Source: Bacteroidales bacterium (GTDB lineage Bacteria > Bacteroidota > Bacteroidia > Bacteroidales > JAIPAP01). From it: a DNA stretch of 46,374 nucleotides. Shown piece after piece: positions 24,201-44,036 of this stretch. The DNA lies in assembly GCA_021740045.1 (NCBI GenBank), contig JAIPAP010000001.1, positions 75,817-122,190 on the forward strand, read 5' to 3'. The position numbers and the translations under genes were made by a program. How positions within the stretch are numbered: the stretch's first letter is position 1; each line of letters starts with the position of its first letter. The notes under the pieces were generated by a model, which was given only the letters and a program-made list of their open reading frames with translations, ran no database searches and was not told the origin of the DNA.

Positions 24201-24443
24201 AATTCAAAGTAATATGTTCGACTTGACTTAAAACACTTGTAAAGGTAATAAAACACCCTGGAAAATTTATGAATAAATGGTAATTTTTTTTCGGTTTTCT
24301 TAAATGGATGTATAAAGATATTCCTAAAAACCTTATTAACCGCTTAAATTTTTTTAATTTTAAGCCAACTTTTGCAAGCATCAGTGATCTATAAATGCTG
24401 ATGCAAGGTTACAGAACCAAATGCAAAACATAAAAACGTGACC

Positions 24444-26909
24444 ATGACAAATACCTTGCTAAGACTCCGGTTTTCGGTGGTGGCATCATTGGGATTGATC
24501 CCTGGCGCCGAAAAGATTGAAGAAAAGAACAATGCACTGCAGCAAGAACTAAACCGCCTCGGGGAGATCGCTTCCTCCGAAAAACTCAACCGTTATCTGG
24601 AGCTTGAAAAATTCATTACCTCCCCTGAGTTTAAGCGCCGGAAAAAAGATATCAATGCGCAACGCTTTAAAGGTACTCCCCAATATGAGAAATACAAGCG
24701 GTATCAAGAATTGAAGCGATCCAGCGATGTTAAAACCTATTACCGGGTAAAAGATTCAAAGGAGCTTAAGCAGTTTGAGGAAACTTCCAACTCCAAGGAA
24801 CTGAAACGCTTTGAAGAGCTGGAGCTGTTCTTCAATTCCGATAAGTTTACCGAGTTTCTAAACAAACTAAAGGAAGATAAAAAGCAACGTAAAGAAGAGA
24901 TCAAAAAAACCGAAAAGCGCTACAAGTCGCTAAAAAAGGAACTGAAACCCTATTTTAAAATTGAAGGCTCGGAGGCTTTAAAGCGTTTTAACGAAGTAGC
25001 CGGTTCCGATAAGCTTAAGCGCTATGAGGAGTTAAAGGATTTTGTCGATCAAACTGATTTTGAAAAGTTTAAAAAAGATTTAGCCACAAAGCAAAAGGAA
25101 CTTAAAGATACTTATAAAAAGAATCATAAGCGGCTTCAAACGCTCGAAAAGCTTAAGCGCAAGCTGGAAATGAAAAAACCTGAACCTAAGCTGGATGAAC
25201 AGGAGCTTGAGGAATTAAGGCAAAAGGTGAATAAAGCCGATTTCCAAAAACAAATGGATGAGTTGCAACCGGCCAAACAGGATGCTTTTAAGAAACTGGA
25301 GGAATTCAATCAGCTTAAGAAATATCCTGATATTAAGGAATATCATAAGGTAAAGGATAAAGATAAGGTCTCCTCCGAACATAAAAGCCATGAACGTATC
25401 GACCGTTTTGTGGAGTTGAAGGAATTTGTCGATAAAACGGATTTTAACCGGCTAAAAGATGAGCTGAAAGCCAAGCGCAAAAAGCTGGAGAAAGCCTATC
25501 GCGAAAATGAAAAGCGCCTCAAAGAGCTTGAAAAGATCAAGCGTAAGCTCGAGAAGAAAAAGCCCGATCCCATCGTGGATGAGGAAGAATTGAAGGACTT
25601 ACGGAAAAAGGTGGATAAAATGCAGCTTGATGAGCAGCTTAAAGCGCTCAAACCCGAAAACCAGGAGGCTTTCCAAAAGCGGGAAGAGTTTCGTAAGCTT
25701 AAAAAGGACAGCGACATCAGGCATTATTTTAAATTTAAGGAGCGAAAAGATTACAGGCAATACCTTGACCTGAAAGATTCCGATAAGCTCAAGGAATACA
25801 GGGAACTGGACGAAAGGATCAAGGCCGGAGAACTGCAAAAGATGAAAGACTCGCTTAAAAACTATGAGTTTAAAAATACAGATGAACACAAGCAATACCA
25901 GGAACACAAGCAGTTAAAGAAATCAAAAAAGCTCAGGGATTATTTCCGGTTTAAGCAATCGAAAAAATACAAGACCTATACTGAATTGCATAACTCGCAA
26001 AAAATTGAAGAGCTCGAAGAGCTTCAGGAGTATGTTAATTCACAAGAGTTTATCGACTTCAAGAAGTATATGGAAACCCGCAACAAATTCAAGCTTTCCG
26101 AAGAATATAAGCAACTGCAGGAGTTTAACAAGCTAAAGAAAGACCGGGACATCAAATGGTATTACCAAAACAAAGATTCGCGCAAGTATGATGAGATCAG
26201 GAATTGGGAGCTTACCTTCGAAGATAATTTTGAACAGCCTGTGCTCGACAGCGAAAAGTGGATTACTTCCTACTATACCGCCCAAAAATTTCTAAAAGGG
26301 AATTATGTTACGGGTCATGCCCATCATTTCTTTAACCCCAATGAGAATCTGCAAATAAAGGAAGGGTGCTTGCAACTGATTACCCGTAAGCAACAGATGC
26401 AAGGCCTGGCATGGAATCCGGATTTTGGCTTTTTACCCAAAGATTTTGAATATACCTCGGCCATTATCAGTAGCGGGGATCATTTCAGCCAGAAATACGG
26501 GCGGTTTTCCGTTAAGGTTCGTATGGATTATGTGTGGCCTTTAATGCATGCTTGCTGGCTTTCAACCGGAACCCAGCTTCCTGAGGTGGACATTTTCAGC
26601 TTAGACCGCAAATCGAAGAAAAAACTTTCAATGGCCCTGCATCATAACGGAAATCAACCCCAAAGCCTGAAAAGCAAGGTCTCTGGCTATAACTTTGCCC
26701 GCGACTTTGTGATCTTTTCCTTGGACTGGCAGCCCGGTGAAATGATCTGGAAAATCAACGATAAGAAGGTTAAGGTTGAAAAGCAACATGTACCCGACCA
26801 GCCGCTGTTTATTAACCTGAGCTCCGGCATCTATTCCAATCACCGGCCCGCCACCCTCCCGGCTAGTATGGAGATTGATTGGGTGAGGGTGTATAAGAAT
26901 AAAGATTAA
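24444..26909 (+). CDS. Long coiled-coil repeat protein fused to a GH16-like domain lacking the acid/base Glu
   Basis: I start at the ATG at 24444, although an in-frame GTG lies two codons earlier. Residue numbers below count from that GTG. Residues 30-585 are extremely rich in Lys/Glu and predicted helical. Two short motifs recur: (E)ELxxFVxSxxF, six times at about 54, 126, 197, 326, 456 and 527; and DIKxYYxxKDS, five times at about 97, 298, 426, 499 and 571. Residues 588-820 match the GH16 (laminarinase/kappa-carrageenase clan) fold, including LTFEDNFE, KYGRFSVKVRM, FSLDWQPGEMIWKIND and the final MEIDWVRVYK. The active-site strand reads EVDIFS (716-721) where GH16 enzymes have E-x-D-x-x-E, so the acid/base Glu is Ser. 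No clear signal peptide is visible. It could be a carbohydrate-binding structural protein rather than an enzyme. Confidence 0.78.
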   Translation: MTNTLLRLRFSVVASLGLIPGAEKIEEKNNALQQELNRLGEIASSEKLNRYLELEKFITSPEFKRRKKDINAQRFKGTPQYEKYKRYQELKRSSDVKTYYRVKDSKELKQFEETSNSKELKRFEELELFFNSDKFTEFLNKLKEDKKQRKEEIKKTEKRYKSLKKELKPYFKIEGSEALKRFNEVAGSDKLKRYEELKDFVDQTDFEKFKKDLATKQKELKDTYKKNHKRLQTLEKLKRKLEMKKPEPKLDEQELEELRQKVNKADFQKQMDELQPAKQDAFKKLEEFNQLKKYPDIKEYHKVKDKDKVSSEHKSHERIDRFVELKEFVDKTDFNRLKDELKAKRKKLEKAYRENEKRLKELEKIKRKLEKKKPDPIVDEEELKDLRKKVDKMQLDEQLKALKPENQEAFQKREEFRKLKKDSDIRHYFKFKERKDYRQYLDLKDSDKLKEYRELDERIKAGELQKMKDSLKNYEFKNTDEHKQYQEHKQLKKSKKLRDYFRFKQSKKYKTYTELHNSQKIEELEELQEYVNSQEFIDFKKYMETRNKFKLSEEYKQLQEFNKLKKDRDIKWYYQNKDSRKYDEIRNWELTFEDNFEQPVLDSEKWITSYYTAQKFLKGNYVTGHAHHFFNPNENLQIKEGCLQLITRKQQMQGLAWNPDFGFLPKDFEYTSAIISSGDHFSQKYGRFSVKVRMDYVWPLMHACWLSTGTQLPEVDIFSLDRKSKKKLSMALHHNGNQPQSLKSKVSGYNFARDFVIFSLDWQPGEMIWKINDKKVKVEKQHVPDQPLFINLSSGIYSNHRPATLPASMEIDWVRVYKNKD

Positions 26910-27080: not shown

Positions 27081-27866
27081 CTATTTATTGCTATAGCTTT
27101 CCACCGCCTCCACAAACGCCCGCGCTATGCAGGTTGAAAAGGTATTATCTTCGGGGAGGCGCTCGGGATGCCATTGCACGCCCAGGAGAAAGGGGTGGCC
27201 TTTGGGCTGTTTCCATTCGATGGCTTCGATCAGGCTGTCGGGGCTGTAGGCGCCCACCTTTAACGAGGGGGCAAGCATATCCACCGCCTGATGATGGTTC
27301 GAGTTTACTTCTTCGCTGGGATCATGGGTGATGGAAATCAGGTGGGAATCTTCCGTTGTCCTAACAAGGTGGTTGGTAGGACCTTCCGGGGTGCGGTGCA
27401 GAACTTGCTTTCCAAAATCAGTAGGAATATCAATAAGCAGGGTGCCGCCAAGATGCACGTTTAGTATCTGTTCTCCCCGGCAGATGCCTAATATGGGAAT
27501 GCCTTCCTTCAGTGCTGTCTTGATAAGCGATAATTCAAGAGTATCGCGCCGCCGGTTGAAGCTGCCGCATTTGGCTGTGTCTTTTTCCTGTCCATACCAA
27601 CCCGGATAAACATCGGGGCCACCGGTCACTAATAAGCCATCACTTGCTTTTAGCGCATTAATGGCCGAATCAAGAGAAAGGGTGGACATGTTCCGGGTGA
27701 TGATAGTAGAATCAGCCCTTTTAAGAAATTTTCCATAATACTGGTAATGCTCGCCCGGCCCTGCCTTAGAAATAGCTATTTGTAAGACTTCCCTGGCTGT
27801 TTGTTGCTGACAGGCCGAAACGATCAGCAATAGAATAACCGTTAAAATGTTGAATGTTCTCCGCAT
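27081..27866 (-). CDS. Class I glutamine amidotransferase-like hydrolase (peptidase C26), lipoprotein form
   Basis: The 261-residue protein resembles gamma-glutamyl-GABA hydrolase (PuuD) and related C26 enzymes. The nucleophile C129 lies in GICRGEQ and the catalytic H233 and E235 in GVQWHPERL; TGGPDVYP (81-88) is the oxyanion/substrate-loop signature. Unlike cytoplasmic PuuD it has a lipoprotein signal with a lipobox ending IVSAC19, so it should sit in the cell envelope. This suggests a role on peptide, gamma-glutamyl or peptidoglycan-derived amides outside the cytoplasm rather than in putrescine degradation. No polyamine genes are adjacent. A TAGTTTAAAGTTT heptamer-like sequence begins at its stop codon. 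Confidence 0.82.
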   Translation of the reverse strand: MRRTFNILTVILLLIVSACQQQTAREVLQIAISKAGPGEHYQYYGKFLKRADSTIITRNMSTLSLDSAINALKASDGLLVTGGPDVYPGWYGQEKDTAKCGSFNRRRDTLELSLIKTALKEGIPILGICRGEQILNVHLGGTLLIDIPTDFGKQVLHRTPEGPTNHLVRTTEDSHLISITHDPSEEVNSNHHQAVDMLAPSLKVGAYSPDSLIEAIEWKQPKGHPFLLGVQWHPERLPEDNTFSTCIARAFVEAVESYSNK

Positions 27867-28331
27867 GGTAATTGATGTTGGTTACATTGGTAAAGATAAG
27901 AATTATTAATGGAATGAATATATATTTAACACCGGCTAAAGGCGATAATGTGTTTGCGTGGTTAAATTTTACCTGATATGCTGATAAGTTATTGATAAAT
28001 GGATGTATGAATGAATGATTGAATGAATGATTGGATGGATGATTGATTGGATGAATGATTGATTGGATGAATGATTGATTGGATGAATGATTGATTGGAT
28101 GAATGATTGATTGGATGAATGATTGATTGGATAAATGAATGATTGGATGAATGATTGAATGAATGATTGAATGAATGATTGATTGAATGAATGATTGATT
28201 GAATGAATGATTGATTGAATGAATGATTGATTGAATGAATGATTGATTGAATGGGTTATGAATAGCAATTGTCCCCATCCTCATCATTAGTATTGCGTAA
28301 TAATGTGTGGCTCAATGAATAATTCGATGGT
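27867..28331. other. Intergenic region dominated by a tandem array
   Basis: This 465-bp gap between the C26 gene and trmN6 consists of about 130 bp of AT-rich DNA, the 16-bp array at 28001-28256, and about 75 bp before the trmN6 stop. The long ORFs running through it on the minus strand are a by-product of the repeat. Confidence 0.6.
28001..28256. repeat. 16-bp tandem array (GATTGATTGRATGAAT)
   Basis: Five exact GATTGATTGGATGAAT units at 28041-28120 are followed by one variant unit. After a less regular stretch, four exact GATTGATTGAATGAAT units lie at 28177-28240, with a partial fifth. The two halves differ by G or A at one position, showing local homogenisation. Because 16 is not a multiple of three, all frames cycle through the same codons and stay open, giving spurious His/Asn/Gln/Ser-rich ORFs. 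Confidence 0.92.
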
Positions 28332-29728: not shown

Positions 29729-30460
29729 ATGCGAATACTTACATTTTTAACCGCGATTGTTTTTATGTTGGCCTCATGTCAGTCGGGTCAGGAAAAGGCT
29801 TCCAATGATGAAAATCTGGCCGAAGGAGTTCATAAAGTAACGGCCAGGGAGGCCATCGATGCCGGTGGCTACACCTATTTAAAGGTTGAAGAAAACGGCC
29901 GGGAATACTGGACTGCCATTACCAGGCGACCTATCGAAGAGGGCGAAACCTACTATTTCACCGGTGGCATGGAGATGAAAAATTTTACCGGAAAAGAACT
30001 CGATCGCACTTTCGAGTCCATTGTCTTTATCCAGAATTTCAGCGACAAGCCCATCAAGCGTGTGGCTAAAAAGGGCATGCAGAAAGGGCAAAAAGGAAAT
30101 CCCCATGAAAAAAGGCTTAAACCAAAGATGGAGGATATCAATGTGGAGCCCGTTTCCGGTGGTGTTACACTTAAGGAATTATTTTCCAATAAGAAAGATT
30201 ACAAGGGCAAAGAAGTTTTGGTACGGGGAAAAGTGGTGAAGATCAACAAAAAAATCATGGACCGCAATTGGGTGCACATACAGGACGGAACCCAGCACAA
30301 TGATCATTTCGACCTGACCATCACCACCGAAAATCCCATCGATTTCAAAACCGGTGATGTGGTTTCCTTCAAAGGTACCCTTACGTTGAACAAGGATTTC
30401 GGCTTTGGGTATGAATATGATTTTATTCTTGAAGATGCGGTAAGGCAGCAAGAGCTGTAG
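29729..30460 (+). CDS. Lipoprotein with NrfJ-like and OB-fold domains
   Basis: The 243-residue protein has a lipoprotein signal with lipobox LASC17. Residues 35-105 follow the pattern of NrfJ-type proteins found beside multihaem cytochromes: AGGYTYLKVEENG, then an aromatic-rich WTAI strand, then GGMEMKNFTGKELDRTF. Residues 145-243 form an OB-fold-like domain with VLVRGKVVKIN, MDRNWVHIQDGT and a GDVVSFKGTLTL strand. The function of this family is not established; its context suggests help in cytochrome or copper/haem maturation, or a partner role in electron transfer. It is transcribed towards the cytochrome operon and may belong to it functionally. No ligand residues can be assigned. Confidence 0.7.
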   Translation: MRILTFLTAIVFMLASCQSGQEKASNDENLAEGVHKVTAREAIDAGGYTYLKVEENGREYWTAITRRPIEEGETYYFTGGMEMKNFTGKELDRTFESIVFIQNFSDKPIKRVAKKGMQKGQKGNPHEKRLKPKMEDINVEPVSGGVTLKELFSNKKDYKGKEVLVRGKVVKINKKIMDRNWVHIQDGTQHNDHFDLTITTENPIDFKTGDVVSFKGTLTLNKDFGFGYEYDFILEDAVRQQEL

Positions 30461-30639: not shown

Positions 30640-32292
30640 CTAAAACCGTTTCGTTAACCGGAGATATACGCGGTTGTAGGTGTTGTCCTCTTCAAAGGTG
30701 GTTTCCGTATCCAGCGAAAAGGAAAAATCCTTGATGATGCGCCAGGTAAGGCTTAGCTGGGCACTGTTTTGCAACAGCTTAAGCTCGTTGCTTACAAAAC
30801 TGTAATCCACATACTTGTATTGTAAACCCCCATAAAGCTTTCCCCTGATGATGTCGCGGTTCAAGCGGGCACCGTATATGCTGCCCGAAATATAGCTGGT
30901 TTCCATGAGGGTGCTGTATAAAGTGGCCGAAACACCCACTACCGGAATCCGGCTATAGGTGATCCAGGCATATAAATTTTTCGATGGCCTTTCGTCGGCC
31001 GGGCGATAACGATAACCGGCCCTTGCCCCGATAGATAGCTTGTTAATGGGGCGGTAATGGACCGAAAAGCGGTAACCTTGCAGGGTTTCCCGCTCAAGCA
31101 ATTGCTCCAGGATGCTTTTATAGGTTTCGTAATAAATAATATTGTCACGGGCGCTGTAGGAAACCGAGAACCTTAGTTTTTGAAAAGGCCTGTAGCGAAG
31201 CATCAGGTAAAGGTGCGTTAGGTTGAAGGTACTTTCCTTGCTCCCATCCATGTTTTGCTTATACAGATCGACCTCTCCTGAGCCAAAGAAATATAGCTTG
31301 TCAATCAGCATGTTCATATGCTGAAAATAAACAAAGCGGCGGTCGGTATTGCCGCTATTTCGCTGCTCCATAAACGACAGCGTGCTTTGCATATGCCCTT
31401 GATCCGTTTCATGCCTGTGGCTTACATAGGCGCCTGCCTGGAACAGGCTGGTGTTAAAGCTGTAATCTTCCCAATCGGGACGTGAACCGGCAACGACACC
31501 CGTGGTGAAGGCACCGAACTGTTTCTCGAATTGCAAGCCATCAATGGCTCCTACGCTTGAGAGATTGCGGTTGATCTTTCGGCCGAACAGCAAGCTTGTA
31601 TTTGCATTAAAATCATAGCTGATATCCAGATTATAAAGCTTTAGCCCGTTGAACAGGTTATCCTGTATCTCGCTCCATTCATTATTGCGATGACTGAATG
31701 AAATATAAGTTTCGGCCGATAGTTTTGAATTGTTGATGTTTTCGGCATCAAATGATACCACATAGCGCATGCGCTGGGAATTATCGGCCAGGGTATTGGA
31801 AAAATTGGAGTAGGAAGCCGTGGTGATGCGTCCCGAAACATCCTGCTCGGGTGTTCCCTCTTCCTGTTCTTCATCTGTGGCTATTTCTTCGGGTTCCGTT
31901 TGAATGTCAGATTTTTTCTCCTCAGGTTTTTTTTCCATTTCCGCAATAGCTTCATCCGGCTTTTTTTCTTTCGATGGTTTATCAGGCTTACTCTTTCTTT
32001 TTTCCGCAAAAACCTTCTGATCTATTTTAAGTTCTCTATCAATTATGGGAATGCATACGCAAGAGATGGAGGAGCGATTGTTAACCTTAAGGGCTGGCAC
32101 TTTTTCCCCATCTTCCGTGATGAACAGGGTATCGCCCACATCAATACCGGTAGTGTTTTCAAATTTCACATACACGTGTTGTGATGTTATGTAGGAAACT
32201 TTACCCTGTTTCATTTGGGGTTCATCCTGCGCGCTAAGACTTCCCAAAAGGAAAAATAAAGAGATTATGGTTACAACATGTTTCATGATCAA
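30640..32292 (-). CDS. Outer-membrane beta-barrel protein of the cytochrome operon
   Basis: The 550-residue protein has a signal peptide (cleavage near LSAQ, about residue 20), a small beta-rich domain (about 28-92) with GKVSYITSQHVYVKF, a Lys/Glu/Pro-rich charged linker (about 95-150), and a C-terminal region of about 390 residues made of alternating strands such as TSLLFGRKI, LSFMEQRN and LYGGLQYKYVDYSF. It ends in a terminal aromatic LTKRF, as outer-membrane barrels do. The start overlaps the stop of the 40-haem gene by 4 bp. In Shewanella-type conduits a barrel (MtrB) sheathes a cytochrome across the outer membrane; this protein is the natural candidate for that job here, by position and fold only, as no sequence similarity to MtrB is claimed. 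Confidence 0.7.
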   Translation of the reverse strand: MIMKHVVTIISLFFLLGSLSAQDEPQMKQGKVSYITSQHVYVKFENTTGIDVGDTLFITEDGEKVPALKVNNRSSISCVCIPIIDRELKIDQKVFAEKRKSKPDKPSKEKKPDEAIAEMEKKPEEKKSDIQTEPEEIATDEEQEEGTPEQDVSGRITTASYSNFSNTLADNSQRMRYVVSFDAENINNSKLSAETYISFSHRNNEWSEIQDNLFNGLKLYNLDISYDFNANTSLLFGRKINRNLSSVGAIDGLQFEKQFGAFTTGVVAGSRPDWEDYSFNTSLFQAGAYVSHRHETDQGHMQSTLSFMEQRNSGNTDRRFVYFQHMNMLIDKLYFFGSGEVDLYKQNMDGSKESTFNLTHLYLMLRYRPFQKLRFSVSYSARDNIIYYETYKSILEQLLERETLQGYRFSVHYRPINKLSIGARAGYRYRPADERPSKNLYAWITYSRIPVVGVSATLYSTLMETSYISGSIYGARLNRDIIRGKLYGGLQYKYVDYSFVSNELKLLQNSAQLSLTWRIIKDFSFSLDTETTFEEDNTYNRVYLRLTKRF

Positions 32293-35200
32293 TCCAGTCT
32301 TTTATCCATTTTCCTGAACATTTTCATTACTTCTTCGCCATTGGGATGGCATTCGTAACAAGCTGTGCTTTCGTATACATAACCCGGTACCTCATCATGC
32401 TCCTCATCCATATCCTGTTGGTTGTGCTCATGACAGTCGATACAGCTAAAGATGCTATAATTGTTCGGGTTGGTGTGACACTCGCTGCAGGTATTCCATT
32501 CACCCTCATGTTCACCCGAATAAATGGGGAAGTACTGTGCATCATGTTCAAAAGTGGAGGGTATCCAGGCATCTTGCGTATGGCATAGTTCACACTCGGT
32601 GGGGAATTGAGCAGATGCATGCGGCGGGTCGGTGGTTTGGTTGTAATCCTCCTCATGGCAGCCAAAGCAGGTGTTTGGAGTATTGTTATAATCACCTTCA
32701 TGACAGGTGTTGCAATTGTCAGCTATTTCAGCATGCGCTCCAACCAGCTCATAAAAATCATCATGAATGGGGAAAGTAGCGGGCTCCCATCCTGGATCGG
32801 TAGTATGGCAAGTGGCGCATTCATAAGGCAATCCCAGCTCGTTGTGGTTCGGGTTGGTCGATTCCAGGTAAGCTTGGCTGTGGCAGTCGGAGCAAACAGT
32901 GGTAGTGCCTTCATAGCCATCCTCATGGCAATCGATGCATTCGGTTGTGGTGTGTGCACCGGTTAACGGAAAATCCGACTGGTTATGATCGAATGCGCCG
33001 TCACCTTCTCCGGTCGGATGACATTCATAACAAGCCTGGCTCTCATACACATATCCACCAACCCCTTCGTGCTCTTCATCCATATCCTGCTGGTTATGTT
33101 CATGGCAATCGATACAACTGAAGAGGGTATAATTATTCGGGTCGGTATGGCATTCGCTGCAGTCATCCCATTCACCGTTATGTTCTCCGGAATAAATGGG
33201 GAAATACTGCCCGTCATGATCGAAGGTGGAAGGTTCCCAGGAATCCTGCGTATGACAGGACAAACAATCTGTTGGAAATCCCACAGCTTCATGGTTGGGA
33301 TCGGTGGTTTGGTTGTAATCCTCCTCATGGCAACCGAAACAAGTGTTTGGCGTGTTATTATAATCACCGCCATGGCAAGTGTTGCATTCGTTTGAAATGG
33401 AAGCATGTGCCCCCAGCAACTCATAAAATTCATCGTGTATGGGGAATGAAGCCGGTTCCCAGCCTGGTTCGGTGCCATGACAGGTGGCGCATTCCATCGG
33501 TAATCCCAGGCTGTTGTGATCGGGGTTGGTGCTCTGGTTGTAGTCATTGGTATGGCAGGATGAACAAGCGGTTGGCGTGCCCTCGTATCCTTCTGAATGG
33601 CAATCTTCACAAGCGGTTGTAGTGTGCGCTCCTGTCAGGGCGAAATTGGATTGATCGTGATTAAATGCTCCGTCACCCTCTCCTGTTGGATGACATTCGA
33701 AGCAAGCCTGGCTTTCATAAATATATCCCCCTACGCCCTCATGCTCTTCGTCGGTGTCGGGCTGGTTATGTTCGTGGCAATCAGTGCAGGTGAAAATGGC
33801 ATAATTGGAGCTGTTGGTGTGGCAGTCACTGCATTCATCCCACTCCCCCTGGTGTTCACCGGAATAGATGGGGAAATACTGCCCGTCGTGTTCAAAGGTA
33901 GCCGGCTCCCAGGCATCTTCGGTATGACAGGTAATGCAATCCGTCGAAAACTGGGCCTGCTCATGAGTGGGGTCGGTGGTTTGGTTGTAATCTTCTTCGT
34001 GGCAACCGAAACAAGTATTCGGGGTATTCACATAATCACCGTCATGGCAGGAAGCACATTCATTGGCGATTTCACCATGGGCGCCATTCAGGGCATAATA
34101 ATCATCATGTACCGGAAATTCGGCCGGTTTCCATTCAGGTTCCGTGGTATGGCATGAAGCACAATCATCGGGAAGCCCCAGGCTGCTGTGATTGGGATTG
34201 GTCGATTCATTGTAATCATTGATGTGGCACGAAGCACAATCTGAGGGGGTTCCAGCATAGCCTTCCGCATGGCAATCTGCACATTCGGTAGTAGTATGTG
34301 CCCCAGTTAATGGGAAATTCGATTGATCATGGTTAAAAATATTTTCTTCACTTCCCGTGGGATGACATCCCAGGCAGGCCGTGCTTTCATATGTATAGCC
34401 GCTCACCTCATCATGTTCCTCATCCATGTCGGGTTGATTATGTTCATGGCAATCAGTACAAGTATAAAGCGAGTAATTGGAAGCATTTTTATGACAATCG
34501 GCGCAATTATCCCACTCCCCGTTATGTTCGCCCGAATAAATGGGGAAGAACATGCCATCGTGTTCATCAAATTTTGCGGGCTTCCAGTCGGGAACAGTCG
34601 TATGACAATCCTGGCAGGTGGTTGAAAAATTCAGGGAGACATGATTGGGGTTTGCTGAAGTATTGTAATCTTCCTGGTGGCAGGATAAACATTCACTGGA
34701 AACATCATTAAAATTAGCGCCCTCGGTGTGGCATTGGAAGCAATTGTCGATTTCGTGGCCTTTTGTCAGGGGGAAAAAACTATGATCGAGCCCGGCACCC
34801 CGCCAGGTGAACGCATTATGCTGATGGCAATCGGTACATTCGGTTGAAAAACCGGCTTCAACATGGTTGGGATCGGTGGCAGCCCGGTAATCCTCCTGAT
34901 GGCAATCGATACATTCAATGCCCAGCGGTTCAAAATTCAGATCATTGGCCGAGGTATGGCAATCGATACAATTAGCCATGGAATGAGCGCCTAAAAGTGG
35001 AAAGCGGGTTTGCTCATGGAGTTCGGTAATGTCATTCACAATCCATGATTCGGAGGTATGACATCGGCTGCAATCCATTCCTAAGGACTGCTGATGTACG
35101 TCGGTGTGACAGGTGGAGCATTCACTTTGCGCCGCTGAAAAAACCAGGGTAGTATGACAACTCCTGCAATCCACATCGCGATGTTGCCCGGTGAGGTTAA

Positions 35201-35372
35201 ACTCTGTCATGGTGTTATGGTCGAAGGTGTAGGTGCCCTCGATCATTTTCCAGCCCTGCGTGGTGTGACAGTCACCACAACTAATGGCCAGGTCTTCGCC
35301 ATGAGGAGATTCCTGTGCCGGCGTGCTCATAGCAAGTGCCAGCAGCCAAATTATTGATGACAGTCTTCGCAT
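32289..35372 (-). CDS. Secreted 40-haem c-type cytochrome with three 224-residue repeats
   Basis: The 1027-residue protein has a signal peptide (1-19, cleavage at PAQ) and 40 CXXCH motifs by hand count. Residues 285-508, 509-732 and 733-956 are three tandem repeats of exactly 224 residues, each with nine CXXCH motifs, with no insertion or deletion between copies; 957-1027 is a truncated fourth copy with three. Each repeat is itself three modules of about 75 residues and three haems, opening GEHxGEW or GAH. Residues 20-284 hold ten more motifs in diverged modules. No sorting domain or membrane anchor is seen. The family resembles cytochrome c3-like multihaem proteins. Its likely role is long-range electron transfer across the periplasm or outer membrane. 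It overlaps the 20-haem gene by 22 bp and the barrel gene by 4 bp. Confidence 0.9.
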   Translation of the reverse strand: MRRLSSIIWLLALAMSTPAQESPHGEDLAISCGDCHTTQGWKMIEGTYTFDHNTMTEFNLTGQHRDVDCRSCHTTLVFSAAQSECSTCHTDVHQQSLGMDCSRCHTSESWIVNDITELHEQTRFPLLGAHSMANCIDCHTSANDLNFEPLGIECIDCHQEDYRAATDPNHVEAGFSTECTDCHQHNAFTWRGAGLDHSFFPLTKGHEIDNCFQCHTEGANFNDVSSECLSCHQEDYNTSANPNHVSLNFSTTCQDCHTTVPDWKPAKFDEHDGMFFPIYSGEHNGEWDNCADCHKNASNYSLYTCTDCHEHNQPDMDEEHDEVSGYTYESTACLGCHPTGSEENIFNHDQSNFPLTGAHTTTECADCHAEGYAGTPSDCASCHINDYNESTNPNHSSLGLPDDCASCHTTEPEWKPAEFPVHDDYYALNGAHGEIANECASCHDGDYVNTPNTCFGCHEEDYNQTTDPTHEQAQFSTDCITCHTEDAWEPATFEHDGQYFPIYSGEHQGEWDECSDCHTNSSNYAIFTCTDCHEHNQPDTDEEHEGVGGYIYESQACFECHPTGEGDGAFNHDQSNFALTGAHTTTACEDCHSEGYEGTPTACSSCHTNDYNQSTNPDHNSLGLPMECATCHGTEPGWEPASFPIHDEFYELLGAHASISNECNTCHGGDYNNTPNTCFGCHEEDYNQTTDPNHEAVGFPTDCLSCHTQDSWEPSTFDHDGQYFPIYSGEHNGEWDDCSECHTDPNNYTLFSCIDCHEHNQQDMDEEHEGVGGYVYESQACYECHPTGEGDGAFDHNQSDFPLTGAHTTTECIDCHEDGYEGTTTVCSDCHSQAYLESTNPNHNELGLPYECATCHTTDPGWEPATFPIHDDFYELVGAHAEIADNCNTCHEGDYNNTPNTCFGCHEEDYNQTTDPPHASAQFPTECELCHTQDAWIPSTFEHDAQYFPIYSGEHEGEWNTCSECHTNPNNYSIFSCIDCHEHNQQDMDEEHDEVPGYVYESTACYECHPNGEEVMKMFRKMDKRLD
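32505..34520 (-). repeat. Three 672-bp tandem coding repeats in the 40-haem gene
   Basis: The repeats occupy 33849-34520, 33177-33848 and 32505-33176 (first to last in translation). Each is 672 bp, encodes nine CXXCH motifs, and begins at a GEW codon triplet. A partial fourth copy runs to 32292. The copies differ by many substitutions but have no indels. Confidence 0.92.
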
Positions 35373-36943
35373 TTGAATTCCTCTATTTTATATTCCGTAA
35401 ATGTGTTTCCTTCAATGGTTTTTTCTTCATGGCATTTATAGCATGCTACATCTTCGTGTTTGCCGTCAAGCGGAAACAGCGTGTTATCATGATCGAAACG
35501 GCTGGCCTCCCAGTTCTCAAAGGCGTGGCAGCGTGTACAATCCGTGGTTCCGCTTTTTTCAAATTGTCCGTAATGAATATCCTGATGGCAATTGGTACAT
35601 TCACTGTTGAGTTCCGAAAATCGCTGCATGGAATTGCCGTTGCGTTCTTCAAAATGACAATCACGGCAGCTTTGCTCACGGTGTGCTCCCTGTAATTCAA
35701 ATTCGGTGATGGAATGGTTGAAGTCAATGGTGCTCCACATGTCCACGCTGTGGCAGCTTTCGCAGCCCTCATCTTCATAATAGCTTTGGTCCAGGTATGG
35801 GTCGTGTATATTTTCATGGCAATCAATGCAGGTTTCGCCCATATTGGCAAAGTCCCATTTCTTACCGGTTTTATGGCAGGCAATACAGGGTGTGGCCAAA
35901 TGAGCACCTTCCAGCGGAAAATCCGTTTTGTTATGTTCCTGTATGGAAAAGGAGGTTTTTTCAAAGCCATTCACATCATGGCATTCTGCACAATCGTGGG
36001 ATGTGCCGTTTTCTGCGAATTGCCCTTGGTGATAATCTTCATGGCAATCGCTGCAACGGCTGTGTTCGATGGGGGCAGTGTAATTATTCTGATGACACGA
36101 CCGGCAATCCAGGAAGCTGTGTTTGCCCTCCAGTTCGAATCCTGTTTTGCTGTGGTCGAATTGATCAATGCCTTTTACTTTAAAGAAGGATTCTTCGGTA
36201 TGGCAGCGCTGACAGTTTTGTCCGAATTTGTTGTCATGAACATCGGTGTGGCAATCGGCGCAGCTATTATGGTCAACACCGGCAAATTCATGGAATTCTT
36301 TTCCGCTACGGGTGGTCACCTCATGGCAGTCATCGCATTCCACTTCGCGGTGTTTGCCTTTTAAGGTGAAATCGGTTTCATCGTGATTGAAATTCACCGC
36401 CGGTTCAAAGGCCTCAAACCCATGGCAATCGGAACAGGCGCTGGCTAGAGTGTTTTGATGATAATCGGTGTGGCAGGTAAGGCATTCGCTATTCAAACCC
36501 AAATAGGAGTATTCTTTTTCCCTGATCTTTGGATTTTCTATATGTTCGTCTTTATGGCATTCCCCGCAATCAGTATTGGCATGAGCTCCTTTTAATGTGT
36601 AACCGGTAAGATCATGATTAAAAGTATCTTTTTTGAACCGGATGATCTCAAAATCCCTTCCGTGATGGTCGCTATGGCACTGAATGCAGGGCTTCCCAAA
36701 AACCTTTTCCGAGGCATGGTAGCCAAGTTTTTGATCGATGCGGTTTTTAAGCAAGGTATGACAATCAAGGCATTTTTTGTTGGTGATCTTGGCACCCAGG
36801 GTATGGCACTTGGTGCAATTGGAAAGTCCTTCGAGGTGGGCGTGTGCTTCAACCAATTTGCCGGGCGAAAGCTGGGCAAGACCTGTGAGGGTGTACATCA
36901 GGTTCACCAGTATAATCGCTACTATTTTTGCTAGCCCGTTCAT
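35351..36943 (-). CDS. Secreted 20-haem c-type cytochrome
   Basis: The 530-residue protein has a signal peptide (cleavage near GLAQ, about residue 24) and 20 CXXCH motifs by hand count, spread evenly from residue 43 to the C terminus, where the last motif CEDCH ends one residue before the stop. Repeated elements such as FxLEGKH, HNKTDFPLEGAH and CxDCHxDxHxGQF show that it is built from two- to three-haem modules distinct from those of the 40-haem protein. It has no membrane anchor, so it is probably periplasmic and links the inner-membrane proteins encoded upstream to the 40-haem cytochrome. It starts 9 bp after the Fe-S/flavoprotein gene and overlaps the next gene by 22 bp. Confidence 0.9.
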   Translation of the reverse strand: MNGLAKIVAIILVNLMYTLTGLAQLSPGKLVEAHAHLEGLSNCTKCHTLGAKITNKKCLDCHTLLKNRIDQKLGYHASEKVFGKPCIQCHSDHHGRDFEIIRFKKDTFNHDLTGYTLKGAHANTDCGECHKDEHIENPKIREKEYSYLGLNSECLTCHTDYHQNTLASACSDCHGFEAFEPAVNFNHDETDFTLKGKHREVECDDCHEVTTRSGKEFHEFAGVDHNSCADCHTDVHDNKFGQNCQRCHTEESFFKVKGIDQFDHSKTGFELEGKHSFLDCRSCHQNNYTAPIEHSRCSDCHEDYHQGQFAENGTSHDCAECHDVNGFEKTSFSIQEHNKTDFPLEGAHLATPCIACHKTGKKWDFANMGETCIDCHENIHDPYLDQSYYEDEGCESCHSVDMWSTIDFNHSITEFELQGAHREQSCRDCHFEERNGNSMQRFSELNSECTNCHQDIHYGQFEKSGTTDCTRCHAFENWEASRFDHDNTLFPLDGKHEDVACYKCHEEKTIEGNTFTEYKIEEFKCEDCHQ

Positions 36944-36952
36944 TACATAAAA

Positions 36953-38308
36953 TTAGTTTTTCTTCCGATGACTCATTACGGCCTCGCCGAATTTCTTAGT
37001 GATCTCTATACCTGCCTTTTGCAGGAACTGTGTTGGCAATTCCCCTCCGATAAAAATATAGACCAGATCATTTTCCACTTCAAGGGTCTCCCCGTCATTG
37101 GTTTTTAACATTACCTTATCCTCTTCAATAGCAGTAGGGTTGGTGTTGAATTTCACATCCACCTTACCCTCGTTCATAGCATCTTTGATCTTTTGAAGGT
37201 TTTTGGGTTTCAACCGGCCAAAGGCATCCTTACGGTATGATATGGTCACCTCATTTTGTTCGGCCAGCATAAGGGCCGATTCAACAGCCGAATCACCGCC
37301 ACCAACCACCATGATCTTTTTATTGCTGATATCTTCCGGCTCCAGCAGGCGGTAAGCCACCTTTTGACTGGTTTCGCCGGGAATATTAAGTTTTCGTGGC
37401 GTTCCCCGCCGGCCTATTGCAATCAGTATCTTGGCGGCCGTGATCTCCTCTCCATTCAGTACATCCAATTTAAAATGCCCGTTTACCGGGGTGATGGTAT
37501 CTACCTTGGAGTTTTCCCGGATGGAAAGCCGGTTTTTATTCAATGCCTCGTTCCATACCTTCAGTAATTCGGTTTTACTGGTTTCCGAAAGTTTCACCTT
37601 GCCGTAAAGCGGGAGGTCCATGGGAGAGGTCATTACAATCTTGGAACGGGGAAAAGTAAATACCGTACCGCCTAAGGAATCTTGCTCAAGAGTGAGGGCC
37701 TTAAGACCGTGCTTTTTGGCGGTAAGGCTGGCTGAGATGCCGGCAGGGCCTGCCCCCACAATGACCATATCGTAATCGGCCCGGTGATTTTTTTGGATTT
37801 TTTTGGAGGCATTCACCGCTGCTTGCCGGCCCTGTTCCACGGCGTTTTTGATCAACCCCATGCCACCAAGCTCTCCGGCAATATAAATGCCTTCCACATT
37901 GGTTTCAAAATTGGCATCCACGTGCGGCAAGTCAACACCCCTTGTCTCCGTGCCGATCACCAGGGTAATGGCCTCGGTGGGGCAAGCGTGAAAGCAGGCG
38001 CCATGGCCCACACAGCGTGAGGCATTAATAGTGGTGGCTTTGCCGTTGCGGATACCCAGGATATCTTTCTCCGGGCAGGCAGCTATACAGGCTTCCGACT
38101 TAATGCAACGGTGTTTGTCAATTCGGGGATGTAAGGAAGCCGGCTCATAGGTACCTTCTTCCTTGGCAATACCGATCTTTTCTTCCGTCGACCGGGATTG
38201 CTTCCGAAGTTTCCGGATATAGAAAAGGATGGCCGCAAGGCAAATAACCCCGACCAGTCCGTAAATGAGTATTTTTTCAACCAGTAGTTCCATCGTTAAA
38301 AGATCCAT
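36953..38308 (-). CDS. Membrane-anchored ferredoxin-type/FAD-NAD(P) oxidoreductase
   Basis: The 451-residue protein has an N-terminal membrane helix (about 10-31), a ferredoxin-like segment (65-115), and a thioredoxin-reductase-like flavoprotein domain (178-445) with FAD motif VGAGPAG (184-190) and NAD(P) motif VVGGGDSAVES. The two Fe-S motifs read C68-x5-C74-x3-C78-P and C99-x5-C105-x3-C109-P, so the second Cys of each canonical CxxCxxC is replaced by Ser71 and His102. A GIYIAGELGGMGLIKNAVEQ segment (140-159), normally at the end of such flavoproteins, lies before the FAD domain. No redox-active CxxC is seen. It probably moves electrons between NAD(P)H or ferredoxin and the neighbouring cytochrome b. 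It may start at the second Met (38293), which would remove the 13-bp overlap with the preceding gene. Confidence 0.8.
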   Translation of the reverse strand: MDLLTMELLVEKILIYGLVGVICLAAILFYIRKLRKQSRSTEEKIGIAKEEGTYEPASLHPRIDKHRCIKSEACIAACPEKDILGIRNGKATTINASRCVGHGACFHACPTEAITLVIGTETRGVDLPHVDANFETNVEGIYIAGELGGMGLIKNAVEQGRQAAVNASKKIQKNHRADYDMVIVGAGPAGISASLTAKKHGLKALTLEQDSLGGTVFTFPRSKIVMTSPMDLPLYGKVKLSETSKTELLKVWNEALNKNRLSIRENSKVDTITPVNGHFKLDVLNGEEITAAKILIAIGRRGTPRKLNIPGETSQKVAYRLLEPEDISNKKIMVVGGGDSAVESALMLAEQNEVTISYRKDAFGRLKPKNLQKIKDAMNEGKVDVKFNTNPTAIEEDKVMLKTNDGETLEVENDLVYIFIGGELPTQFLQKAGIEITKKFGEAVMSHRKKN

Positions 38309-39105
38309 CTGTATCCTAAAATCGTGACCACTACCACATGTATGATCATAATCACCAACATAATGAGTGCAAAGGGTAAATGTACCACATGCCAGTATTT
38401 GAACAGGTTTTGCATGGTATTTAATCGCTCTATACGTTTGTTGAGCGAAATCTCATGGTTGACCAATTTGAGGGCATTTTTAAAATCTTTCTGCGGCAGC
38501 TTGCCTTTTAGCAGTGATTTTACCTTGCTCTTGTTTTTGTTGTCGGCGGCCTCTTCGGTAAAGCGGGTGGTTTCTTCGTCCAATTGGTATTTTTCGGTGA
38601 GGATGGCTTTAAGGTCGCTTTTCATGTTTTTCACCTCGTTAAGGCTGAGCTCCCTTCCTTGGATCGTCCGTGGGATTTGCAGGTAGATAAACCGTCCGAT
38701 AATACCACTAACAAAAACCGCCACCATAGCCCAAAAGCTAATGGCTACAATACCGCCAAATTTAAAAGCTGTGTGGAACAAGATGAGCAACGGCCCCAGG
38801 GTGCAAAGGAAAATATGAAACTCCAGCCAGTGTTTTAAAACACCCACTTTCGACAATGTACGCCAGCGTTTACGGGCCATATAGCTTCCCACACCGATGA
38901 GGAGAGCCAATGATCCCATGATGCCATAACCATGACCAAAAACACCGCTGGGTTTTAGTTGTTGATGATCATCATGATAGAAACGCTCCTTCAAGGCCAC
39001 CTGGTAATAATCCTGTCCCGTGTATATCAGCCATGCCAATATAATTAAAACAATAGCCGATAATGTAAAAATATAGGCCCTATGAGTACCCTTCGACATC
39101 TGCAT
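38296..39105 (-). CDS. Cytochrome b-like integral membrane protein
   Basis: The 269-residue protein has five likely membrane helices: about 10-28, 58-75, 93-112, 118-137 and 245-266. Histidines are placed as b-haem ligands: GHGYGIM before helix 2, HWLEFHIF and LFHTAF around helix 3, and YWHVVHLP plus IIHVVVV around the last helix. A long charged cytoplasmic loop (about 150-235) lies between the last two. This is the first gene of the cytochrome operon. I infer it passes electrons between the membrane or flavoprotein side and the periplasmic 20-haem cytochrome, perhaps via quinol. The exact family is not certain; similar proteins are annotated cytochrome b or ferric-reductase-like. Either Met1 or Met3 could be the start. 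Confidence 0.72.
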   Translation of the reverse strand: MQMSKGTHRAYIFTLSAIVLIILAWLIYTGQDYYQVALKERFYHDDHQQLKPSGVFGHGYGIMGSLALLIGVGSYMARKRWRTLSKVGVLKHWLEFHIFLCTLGPLLILFHTAFKFGGIVAISFWAMVAVFVSGIIGRFIYLQIPRTIQGRELSLNEVKNMKSDLKAILTEKYQLDEETTRFTEEAADNKNKSKVKSLLKGKLPQKDFKNALKLVNHEISLNKRIERLNTMQNLFKYWHVVHLPFALIMLVIMIIHVVVVTILGYRWIF

Positions 39106-39369: not shown

Positions 39370-40293
39370 TTATTGATCTTTCTTTTCGTCTTCGTCTTCC
39401 GGTTTTTTTTCTTCCTCTTTTGCTTCAGGTTCTTTTTCCTGCTTTTCTTCTTCCTTAGCTTTCTCCTGTTTGGCTTCGGCTTGCTTCTCTTCTTTTACCT
39501 CGTCCTTGGCTTCTTCCTGTTTAGCTTCAGGTTTTTCCTCTTCCTTAGCTTCAGCGGGCTGCTCTTGCGGAGCTTCTTCCTGTTTGGCTTCGGATTGAGT
39601 TTCCTCCTGTTTTGCCTCGGCCTTTTCCTCTTCTTTAGCTTCCGGCTTTTCTTCTTCCTTGGCCTCAGCTTGCTCCTCTTCTTTCACCTCGTCCTTGGCT
39701 TCTTCCTGTTTGGCTTCAGGTTTTTCTTCTTTCTTAGCTTCAGCGGGTTGCTCTTGCGGAGCTTCTTGCTGTGTGGTTTCAGCTTCGGCAGAGGAAGCTT
39801 CCTCGTTTTGGGCCTCTCCGGCTTCGGCAGCAGCGGCCTGCTGTTTCTTGGCTAATTCGGCAGCACGGGCCTCGTTGATTTTGGCCTCGGCTTCTTTCTG
39901 CTTTTTAACCTGTTCTTTTTCCGAAAGAAGAACGTCCTTACGCTTTTGCTCGAGCTTATCCTCTTTTTCACGCAACCACTCGTTGAATTTGGCATCGGCT
40001 TCGGCCTGGGTTAAAGCGCCTTTGCGAACACCACGTTGCAAGTGGTTTTTGTACATTACTCCTTTGTTCGAGAGGATGTTACGCACGGTGTCGGTGGGTT
40101 GGGCTCCATATTGGACCCATTCAAGGGCACGGTCGAAGTCGAGTTCGATTTGTGCGGGATGTGCCACCGGATCGTAGGTTCCTATACTTTCGATGAACCG
40201 TCCGTCGCGCGGTGCACGAACATCTGCAATTACGATGTGGTAAAAAGGTCTAGCCTTTCGGCCACGTCTCTGTAATCTGATCTTTGTTGGCAT
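39370..40293 (-). CDS. rpsP: 30S ribosomal protein S16 with very long acidic/basic tail
   Basis: Residues 1-80 are a standard S16 domain ([32 protein letters not shown], and [17 protein letters not shown]). S16 assembles early into the 30S subunit. Bacteroidota S16 proteins usually have a C-terminal extension bringing them to roughly 180-200 residues; this one is 307. Residues 81-175 are a typical helical extension, and 176-307 is low-complexity Glu/Lys/Ala/Gln/Pro sequence with a 63-residue internal duplication ([10 protein letters not shown] at 178 and again at 241). The tail must project from the ribosome surface and has no known role. It is monocistronic, with its own terminator; rimM, its usual partner, is 9.8 kb away. 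Confidence 0.93.
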
Positions 40294-42664: not shown

Positions 42665-44023
42665 ATGAGGAATCATTCTAAAACTTTCGTTTTTGTGGGA
42701 CTGATATTATTGTTCAGTTTCAGCTTTATTATTCCCCAAAAGGAAGGGAGTAATGAATTGGGTGCTTTTGAATATGATGATTTCGAAACGCCTGAATTTT
42801 GCAAATCCTGCCATAATCAGTTTTACCAGCAATGGAGTCAGGCGATGATGTCGAAGGCTTATACGCATCATTGGGATGAGATTGAGTATTTCAAGCTGGC
42901 TGTAGCCCATTCCAAAGCCGATCCGGAAATGGCCGATGCTCATAAGGGCTGCAACGGTTGTCATACACCTATGGCTTTTTTGGCCGGCGATGTGCCCCCA
43001 CCCCGGCCGAAAGAGGAAAGGCGTGCAAATGAAGCGGTTTCCTGCGAGGTTTGCCATTTAATAAAAGGGATAGCGGGCGATACTGCCTATAACCATAATT
43101 TTATAATGAAGCCCGGCCATACCAAGTACAGTTCCCGCAAAGGCGAGAAGGAATCACCCGATCATAAAATCGTGCCCATCGATTTGCATAGCGATACCCG
43201 TTTGTGCGGAAGTTGTCATAATGAGAAAAGTCCTTTTGGGGTTTGGGTTAAAAGTACACAACTGGAATGGCAAAACGGCCCCTATTCCGACGAAGGGGTT
43301 ACCTGCCAGGAGTGCCACATGCCCGACACCAAGATGAAAACGGCCAAGATGGGCACCACCTATCCCGATGCCCGCATGCATCTTTTTAACGGCGCTCATG
43401 ACAAGGGCAAGGTAAGGGGAACCATTGAGGTACGTATCCAGCCCGATATTCGAGAAACCGTACCCGGCGAAGTTGTGGTTCTTACGGCTACCTTGTTCAA
43501 TCAAAAAACGGGGCATAAATTCCCCACCGGTTCTGTCGAAGACCGCATTGTGTGGTTGCATGTTGAAGCCGAGGATGAAAAAGGCAACACCTACCATATC
43601 CCCGTTGATAAAAAAGGTTTTGAGGGCGAGCAATACACCATTGCCAGTGATGATCTGGCCTACCAGGATATGGGTATTCCCTTGGGCATAGAGGATTTTA
43701 AAGGCATTAAACGCGAAGATGTTCCCATGGGTGACCGTATTTTCCGCATGCCTTTCTTCGATCCGCAAGGCCGCATGACCATCATGCAGTGGAACACCGC
43801 TTCGCTGGGAGTGGATTATCGCATAGGACCACGCGAAACGAAGACGGAGACCTATACCTTTAACCTGCCTTATGAAATTGAACCGGGCAAGGTGAAGATA
43901 ACGGCTTCTTTATACTACCGGCTCTTGGTAAAGCCGGTGGGAGAATACCTCGATGTTCCCGCGGAGGAATATGAAAAGCTATTGGTCAACCAGCATTCAA
44001 CTGAAATAACCGTATATCCTTAA
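42665..44023 (+). CDS. Pentahaem c-type cytochrome (cytochrome c554-like)
   Basis: The 452-residue protein has an N-terminal hydrophobic signal or anchor (about 8-24) and five CXXCH motifs, with first Cys at residues 46, 96, 127, 181 and 214. The haem domain (about 40-225) follows the cytochrome c554/multihaem pattern (FCKSCHNQFYQQWSQ at the start, CQECHMPD at the end). The C-terminal half (about 230-452) is beta-rich without haem motifs and contains the NQKTGHKFPTGSVEDR segment common in this family. It probably acts in the periplasm as an electron carrier. The cytochrome-porin gene follows after 13 bp, so the pair likely exchanges electrons. Confidence 0.88.
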   Translation: MRNHSKTFVFVGLILLFSFSFIIPQKEGSNELGAFEYDDFETPEFCKSCHNQFYQQWSQAMMSKAYTHHWDEIEYFKLAVAHSKADPEMADAHKGCNGCHTPMAFLAGDVPPPRPKEERRANEAVSCEVCHLIKGIAGDTAYNHNFIMKPGHTKYSSRKGEKESPDHKIVPIDLHSDTRLCGSCHNEKSPFGVWVKSTQLEWQNGPYSDEGVTCQECHMPDTKMKTAKMGTTYPDARMHLFNGAHDKGKVRGTIEVRIQPDIRETVPGEVVVLTATLFNQKTGHKFPTGSVEDRIVWLHVEAEDEKGNTYHIPVDKKGFEGEQYTIASDDLAYQDMGIPLGIEDFKGIKREDVPMGDRIFRMPFFDPQGRMTIMQWNTASLGVDYRIGPRETKTETYTFNLPYEIEPGKVKITASLYYRLLVKPVGEYLDVPAEEYEKLLVNQHSTEITVYP

Positions 44024-44036
44024 AAAATTGAATACC

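Follow-up and report, generated by a model that had tools for sequence, protein, structure and literature searches.

A five-gene multihaem cytochrome operon of Bacteroidota, probably PCC3-like, in which one cytochrome varies nearly always by whole three-haem modules

The stretch of DNA analyzed here (the window) comprises 46,374 nucleotides of a Bacteroidales bacterium (assembly GCA_021740045.1, contig JAIPAP010000001.1, positions 75,817 to 122,190) and carries five consecutive open reading frames (ORFs) on its minus strand, read from 39105 to 30640. These encode, in order, a b-type membrane cytochrome (CytB), an Fe-S flavoprotein, two multihaem cytochromes (MHCs) designated MHC20 and MHC-X, and an outer-membrane barrel protein. 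With a probability of roughly 0.7, we read this locus as a trans-envelope electron conduit with the layout of the porin-cytochrome conduit (PCC) type PCC3, fed by NAD(P)H or quinol and consisting of a fixed periplasmic wire and a variable outer wire. The variable component follows a simple rule: 100 of 103 complete MHC-X sequences contain 1+3m haem motifs, ranging from 10 to 82.

The five genes lie in the place and order given by the initial annotation of this DNA (Table 1), and the distances between them (-13, +9, -22 and +2 bp, with the barrel gene started at the ATG at 32286 rather than at the TTG at 32292 of the ORF listing) agree with its claim of overlaps or gaps of 22 bp or less. Operon-like gene packing is supported by these near-zero distances. 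A promoter and terminator scan was uninformative, with 22 promoter-like sites (15.5 expected) and six terminator-like sites, all on the plus strand (10.0 expected). The cytochromes had been credited with 20 and 40 CXXCH motifs, and these counts are exact: MHC20 (P0003) has 20, MHC-X (P0004) has 40 and neither protein contains any other cysteine. In 1000 shuffles of each sequence, the mean was 0.22 for P0003 and 0.55 for P0004; a chance origin was rejected because the shuffles reach 2 and 4 motifs at most. In Pfam, Cytochrome_C7, Cytochrom_c3_2 and Cytochrom_CIII match both cytochromes, the MtrC/F domain II/IV is above cutoff in MHC-X, and Fer4 and Pyr_redox families match the flavoprotein; for CytB all Pfam matches were sub-threshold, the best being DUF4405.

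Table 1. Features of the conduit locus and its lipoprotein-like neighbour (window positions)
Feature	Position	Strand	Basis
CytB, 269 aa	38296..39105	-	hydropathy and W-x3-H-x13-H / SGxxG signature
Fe-S flavoprotein: N-terminal hydrophobic segment, two ferredoxin-type motifs, YpdA-like FAD/NAD(P) domain	36953..38308	-	Pfam/profile matches
Two Fe-S motifs C-x5-C-x3-CP in flavoprotein	37982..38107	-	sequence motif
Piece matching YpdA profile positions 269-315, ahead of Rossmann domain	37793..37927	-	profile match
FAD/NAD(P)-binding part, YpdA profile positions 1-269	36977..37774	-	profile match
MHC20 (P0003), 530 aa, 20 CXXCH, hydrophobic signal-like start	35351..36943	-	motif count
MHC-X (P0004), 1027 aa, 40 haem motifs	32289..35372	-	motif count
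MHC-X nine-haem super-repeat copy 1, 224 aa	33612..34283	-	protein comparison
MHC-X nine-haem super-repeat copy 2, 74% aa identity to copy 1	32940..33611	-	protein comparison
MHC-X nine-haem super-repeat copy 3, 216 aa, 72% to copy 2, 65% to copy 1	32292..32939	-	protein comparison
Outer-membrane protein (predicted barrel), 548 aa from ATG	30640..32286	-	AlphaFold2 model
Small N-terminal beta domain of barrel protein, residues 25-95, presumably periplasmic	32002..32214	-	AlphaFold2 model
Predicted 22-strand beta barrel, residues 149-547, sequence without an evident separate plug domain	30643..31842	-	AlphaFold2 model
Lipoprotein-like protein, weak OB-fold/GW matches, possible accessory	29729..30460	+	library matches, neighbourhood

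MHC-X of the window consists of a first haem followed by 13 three-haem modules of about 65-79 aa each, and its last nine modules form three copies of a nine-haem, 224-residue super-repeat (65-74% protein identity). When CX2CH, CX3CH and CX4CH motifs are all counted, the haem total is 1 mod 3 in 63 of the 64 complete sequences of the first sequence set (set 1, window included; range 13-82), and when these are sorted into 41 groups at 80% flavoprotein identity, the rule holds for the first member of every group. Binomial odds for these representatives take the three remainders as equally likely, which is not a realistic mutational null. An independent set 2, taken from other genomes whose flavoproteins are no nearer than 68% to set 1 (two Labilibaculum excepted), gave 34/35 (range 10-64). 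Two of three further MHC-X in L010 and L011 obey (34 haems each), the third having 12, and the 40-haem MHC-X of an Emticicia plasmid also obeys. The exceptions are thus L022 (30 haems, CX3CH once), L169 (15) and L011 (12). Set 1 counts leave out every ORF that reaches a contig or stretch end, together with an 8-haem ORF of L013 that belongs to another family (24% identity). Nine cytochrome ORFs were left out of set 2: eight lie at ends (L133 twice, L145-L149 and L169) and the ninth, a 9-motif ORF of L150, had no profile match. Contigs L009 and L012 duplicate L052 and L053, and each was counted once. In six set 2 genomes, the conduit lies on chromosome-sized contigs (3.5-5.7 Mb), and their totals (28, 34, 22, 37, 43 and 19) all obey; collapsed repeats are therefore not the cause of the rule.

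The first five motifs of MHC-X are spaced 36-16-16-34 in 51/64 sequences, the others differing by no more than 2 at one or two places. Apart from four, the 63 sequences tallied for their last two spacings have 14-15 and 26-29 there. Between these two ends, modules with spacings of 15-25-33/35 run in the sequences inspected. Related operons differ by whole modules: at 96% flavoprotein identity MHC-X has 31 vs 34 haems, at 89% 61 vs 73, and at 86% 22 vs 13. Identification of the module as c7 by its spacing was rejected, as the order 15-25-35 differs from the c7 order known to us, and a phmmer search of MHC-X against solved structures gave one chance match. Some loci carry two MHC-X genes, namely L011 (34+12), L025 (16+13), L061 (31+13), L067 (25+13), L082 (16+13), L134 (40+10) and L160 (34+19); all of these totals obey the rule save the 12 of L011.

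MHC20 is nearly constant. Set 1 holds 76 complete ORFs, 63 with 20 haems and six with 23 (exceptions: 19, 17, 11, 11, 10, 7 and 6 motifs); in set 2, 29 of 36 have 20 and two have 23 (exceptions: 19, 19, 16 and a split gene whose pieces carry 5 and 14). All 20 CXXCH motifs and exactly 20 further histidines are invariant in 42 chosen homologues. Across all 72 rows of at least 500 aa, 19 of these histidines are invariant and the 20th is present in 71; a few motif columns fail there, some of the ORFs having fewer than 20 motifs. Twenty invariant extra histidines are what would be expected if every haem of MHC20 were bis-histidine ligated. The best solved relative of the MHC20 profile is 3ov0 (318 residues, E 1.5e-9), presumably the 12-haem GSU1996 of Geobacter. 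It appears to share with MHC20 a chain of three-haem units and differs in its 12 haems; we know of no operon partners of the window's kind for it. T/S/A/G content is higher in MHC-X than in MHC20 in 58/58 pairs. A constant MHC20 and a free MHC-X fit an arrangement in which one protein spans a fixed gap and the other is not bound to one.

Synteny across Bacteroidota, which the initial annotation had proposed as a check, was found. A named-genome scan with a flavoprotein alignment gave 502 relatives, and the best 80 were analyzed. In 77 of these 80 loci, the first gene recognised upstream of the flavoprotein is CytB, at a median distance of -13 bp over the 77 pairs; in the other three, a contig end lies 137-334 bp from the start of the flavoprotein gene. 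MHC20, MHC-X and the barrel are present in each of the 47 loci that have 9 kb or more of downstream sequence. Most of the host records among these 80 are metagenome-assembled genomes (MAGs); the hosts include Labilibaculum euxinus, Draconibacterium aestuarii, Maribellus luteus and Phaeodactylibacter xiamenensis. A barrel query was positive in five of 60 genomes of one order, including the window's own, and the four others have the same neighbours in the same order (in L009 a contig end cuts the locus before CytB). Second flavoproteins in L020, L032 and L064 were considered as paralogues and rejected, since they resemble other FAD enzymes and align over 45-67 residues.

In a phylum sample of 395 genomes, the barrel was found in 34 and the flavoprotein, at E 1e-120, in 35. 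Flavoprotein scores split these 35 into a group of 22 that includes the window (681-871 bits) and a group of 13 (453-495 bits). When the DNA was read, the first group (type I) had the gene order of the window and the second (type II) the order CytB, MHC20, MHC-X, barrel and, last, flavoprotein. Among the 21 other type I genomes, 16 hold the complete set on a single stretch, contig ends truncate four, and CytB went unrecognised in one. The complete set was recognised in 10/13 type II loci, the exceptions being L137 (no recognised CytB), L142 (no recognised barrel) and L143 (flavoprotein alone at a contig end). Emticicia oligotrophica DSM 17448 carries the whole five-gene set on plasmid pEMTOL02, with 23 and 40 motifs in its cytochromes. 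Elsewhere the plasmid searches, which were the only ones to reach outside Bacteroidota, gave just distant matches to CytB or the flavoprotein and no PCC3 sequence. A CcsA cytochrome-maturation gene lies directly upstream of the Emticicia conduit (L172:10899-13985), and the conduit may thus travel with its own haem attachment protein.

CytB of the window has five hydrophobic segments (by hydropathy, at a threshold of our own), the pairs W93/H97/H111 and W238/H242/H256 and an SGxxG at 133. A b-haem signature is thus present, in agreement with the earlier description as cytochrome b-like, and two b haems are expected. The signature occurs in all 70 set 1 proteins of at least 260 aa (of 74; four shorter pieces were left out) and in 27/33 of set 2, the other six keeping both H-x13-H pairs without the first Trp. 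The inner-membrane protein of PCC3 is described as having five transmembrane segments, of which the fourth carries SGxxG and the third and fifth each carry W-x3-H-x13-H (PMC5566968). By this signature, CytB is the PCC3/PCC4 inner-membrane protein; a search of its profile against solved structures gave two chance matches.

The second protein, previously called an Fe-S/flavoprotein, keeps that description and can be specified as a YpdA-like oxidoreductase with an N-terminal hydrophobic segment. It shares the FAD/NAD(P) domain of YpdA-type flavin disulfide reductases, but differs from them in its fusion to the hydrophobic segment and an Fe-S domain and in an apparent permutation. YpdA profile positions 1-269 align with residues 180-444, and positions 269-315 with a piece further forward, at about residues 128-174 (E 4.8e-4), so that the C-terminal FAD piece seems to have moved before the Rossmann domain. 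Its TIGR04018 (YpdA) score is 170 bits against a curated cutoff of 339.9, with the profile not matched in collinear order, and its best solved match is 7a7b. Both ferredoxin motifs are without the second Cys in 104/104 type I flavoproteins; the replacement is Thr or Ser in the first motif (Ser in the window) and His in the second, as in the window. The second Cys of the first motif is kept in 11/13 type II flavoproteins. In P450 ferredoxins, motifs without this Cys hold [3Fe-4S] or His-ligated clusters. As Cys23 is the only cysteine of the window protein outside the Fe-S motifs, leaving no dithiol there, disulfide reduction is unlikely.

The initial annotation had staked its reading on the last protein being predicted as a barrel. 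An AlphaFold2 model built on 56 homologue rows (predicted local distance difference test score, pLDDT, 85) upholds this and predicts 22 strands over residues 149-547, where most ten-residue blocks are above pLDDT 86, with a beta domain at residues 25-95 and a low-confidence linker between. In Pfam, nothing matched the 548-residue protein at E 0.1. Its fold matches are TonB-receptor, Occ, usher and other barrels (Z 14.9-18.2); in the model, these reflect the common barrel shape and give no functional clue. As predicted, the plugless 22-strand barrel would have room for a narrow protein chain. Relatives of the lipoprotein-like neighbour adjoin the barrel or CytB in 14/80 loci, and a homologue (39% over 204 aa) lies directly downstream of the barrel on the Emticicia plasmid; this protein is possibly a sixth conduit component.

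The system is probably PCC3-like, with the same layout on paper and a likely relationship through CytB. PCC3, as described by He et al. (PMC5566968), comprises a porin, two large MHCs and an inner-membrane protein of ~300 aa; it has few residues per haem, a periplasmic MHC with a median of 21 haems and a second, extracellular MHC that is T/S/A/G-rich and variable in haem number, with a median of 34 and up to 85. One cluster of the window holds a porin, MHC20 and a second large MHC, the comparison of porin and MHCs being by description rather than by sequence. Against these numbers, the earlier view that 40 haems in one chain are unusual does not stand. The further view that no described system matches is not supported: PCC3 shares the layout, although a flavoprotein is missing from the PCC3 gene set as listed in the accessible text. 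PCC3 is also reported there from Proteobacteria, and its porins have up to 42 strands by another predictor, compared with the 22 predicted here (PMC5566968). Gallionellaceae PCC3, in the partial account available, have second MHCs with 10-18, 26, 28, 29, 33 and 35 haems, without a 1+3m rule, and periplasmic MHCs with 21, 24 or 27 haems vs 20 or 23 here. Hoover et al. 2023 argue that the PCC3 MHC spans the periplasm (PMC10734462).

Other systems share less with the window. The DmsE/MtrA family of decahaem cytochromes is set apart by the 20 and 40 haems found here and by a TIGR03508 score of 39 bits against a cutoff of 192; for the MtrB family there was no Pfam and one chance-level NCBIfam match, and MtrB is not among the barrel fold matches listed, which is no evidence either way. 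MtrCAB, MtoAB and PioAB have in common with the window a barrel, a periplasmic MHC and a trans-outer-membrane role, but use decahaem cytochromes, a quinol-fed CymA and a 26-strand barrel. Geobacter Pcc (OmbB-OmaB-OmcB) has 8- and 12-haem cytochromes instead of 20 and 40. PCC4 and other clusters with the same inner-membrane signature contain further redox proteins, including an Fe-S gene in one subgroup, but PCC4 has MHCs of 4, 5 and 10 haems and most of the other clusters have no porin (PMC5566968). An OmbB-like PCC of Burkholderiales has 24- and 49-haem cytochromes before the porin, and the larger of these varies by whole CXXCH-containing domains among close relatives, beside a constant one; it is described from three genomes, and the accessible text mentions no flavoprotein and does not state the unit of change (PMC7399161). 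Activated-sludge cytochromes with >100 motifs also belong to Bacteroidota, mostly Saprospiraceae, and are called undescribed, with no operon, rule or mechanism stated in the accessible text (PMC11495043). Novel PCC types in Bacteroidetes, together with a 51-haem MHC in a putative conduit (He et al. 2019, PMC6344600), and a Bacteroidetes cluster whose seven genes encode six MHCs and a porin (PMC8258643) may be relatives of the window operon. An open-literature search that covered papers without their supplements found no naming of this operon or of PCC3 in Bacteroidota, and a Black Sea paper on Labilibaculum has no cytochrome in the available text (PMC11129491). As far as these searches reach, the 1+3m rule, the flavoprotein as fifth gene and the breadth in Bacteroidota are new, and the type II order is likewise not in the accessible account of PCC3.

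We propose the following path. A cytoplasmic flavoprotein would draw electrons from NAD(P)H or ferredoxin via FAD and two Fe-S centres and pass them to CytB, which may also exchange electrons with quinol. The two predicted b haems of CytB would take them across the inner membrane to MHC20, a putative bis-histidine wire of fixed length spanning the periplasm. MHC20 would hand them to MHC-X, whose end would enter or dock at the 22-strand barrel, and from there we infer delivery to an extracellular partner such as Fe(III), Mn(IV) or humics. Because MHC-X changes by whole three-haem modules, its reach could vary with the haem chain unbroken. The T/S/A/G richness of MHC-X would mark an outer protein by analogy with PCC3.

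Several observations weigh against this proposal. First, no T9SS (type IX secretion system) C-terminal sorting domain was found: only 2-54 residues follow the last haem motif in 99 MHC-X, and the Pfam/NCBIfam matches of the window proteins include no T9SS sorting model. A lipobox-like match other than the first haem cysteine was seen in 1/99 (L074). Since 98 of the 99 show no recognised surface export signal, an extracellular MHC-X would need another route or insertion through the barrel. Second, the MHC20 model is weak (pLDDT 75, predicted TM-score 0.35) and its fold search gave no significant match, and the apparent permutation of the flavoprotein is read from profile matches. Third, the barrel occurs in only four of nine Labilibaculum genomes. 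Fourth, the hosts include Emticicia and Phaeodactylibacter, which are aerobes, and anaerobic metal respiration can therefore be a partial explanation at best.

The strongest rival, which we regard as a serious but lesser candidate, is a quinol-driven outward conduit in which CytB oxidises menaquinol and the flavoprotein is an accessory for redox repair, regulation or bypass. Quinone activity was suggested for the b-type protein by He et al., and the PCC3 set as listed does without the flavoprotein (PMC5566968). However, the flavoprotein gene overlaps or abuts CytB (median -13 bp in 77 pairs), and the flavoprotein stays with the type II set even though it stands at the other end.

An inward conduit, in which Fe(II), Mn(II) or a partner cell would supply electrons to the quinone pool or, by way of the flavoprotein, to NAD(P)H, seems unlikely. 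Some hosts are MAGs from Lac Pavin, a ferruginous lake, and a barrel-like protein with one N-terminal CXXCH, which we take to be Cyc2-like, is encoded 5 kb away; PCC3 itself has been modelled in the inward direction (PMC5566968). On the other hand, the window's own genome reads by eye as heterotrophic (bd oxidase, alternative complex III and NrfHA-like genes), the flavoprotein fits donors of low potential, and the Cyc2-like gene does not track the conduit, being absent from the four other conduit genomes among the 60.

Least probable is a periplasmic electron store (capacitor) or redox buffer, with the barrel serving another purpose and the electrons staying in the cell: MHC-X without a recognised export signal and the capacitor roles suggested for giant Bacteroidota cytochromes (PMC11495043) would suit it, but the barrel gene lies downstream of MHC-X in 47/47 loci and stays beside it in type II loci where recognised, and MHC20 hardly varies in length, though a store need not be fixed.

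The outward, NAD(P)H- or quinol-fed conduit remains our preferred reading. Its boldest form is tentative, and we would call it doubtful: a quinone-independent, NAD(P)H-fed trans-envelope wire with a single outer polypeptide that grows by three-haem modules from 10 to at least 82 haems, genetically tunable without polymerisation, present across Bacteroidota and plasmid-borne at least once.

Four further observations concern the neighbourhood. At 42665-45236, a gene for a five-haem c554-like cytochrome is followed by one for an outer-membrane-like protein of 400 aa that carries one CXXCH at its N-terminal end, the architecture of Cyc2; this Cyc2-like gene gave two strong and one weak match in 60 relatives, the window's own genome included. 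The minus-strand ORF at 27766-28287 is made of NQSFIQSIIHSI-like repeats, overlaps a glutamine amidotransferase-like gene (by eye) and resembles a short tandem repeat more than a gene. The gene at 39370-40293 looks by eye like that of ribosomal protein S16 and has a long, acidic repeat tail rich in Ala, Lys and Gln, and an 823 aa ORF at 24438-26909 has a long charged repeat region before a glycoside hydrolase-looking domain (by eye).

The 1+3m rule turns the length of a haem wire into a measurable natural variable, and related operons (31/34, 61/73 and 22/13 haems) form a natural length series for the range of conduction in a single chain. To our knowledge, entry of electrons from NAD(P)H in a way that bypasses quinol is not part of Mtr or Pcc. 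The flavoprotein suggests such an entry here, and it is also not in the accessible account of PCC3 (PMC5566968). Labilibaculum reduces Fe(III) and Mn(IV), and the available text assigns no gene to this activity (PMC5760507). At the level of the genus, of which four of nine genomes carry the barrel, the operon is a concrete candidate for Fe(III) and Mn(IV) reduction.

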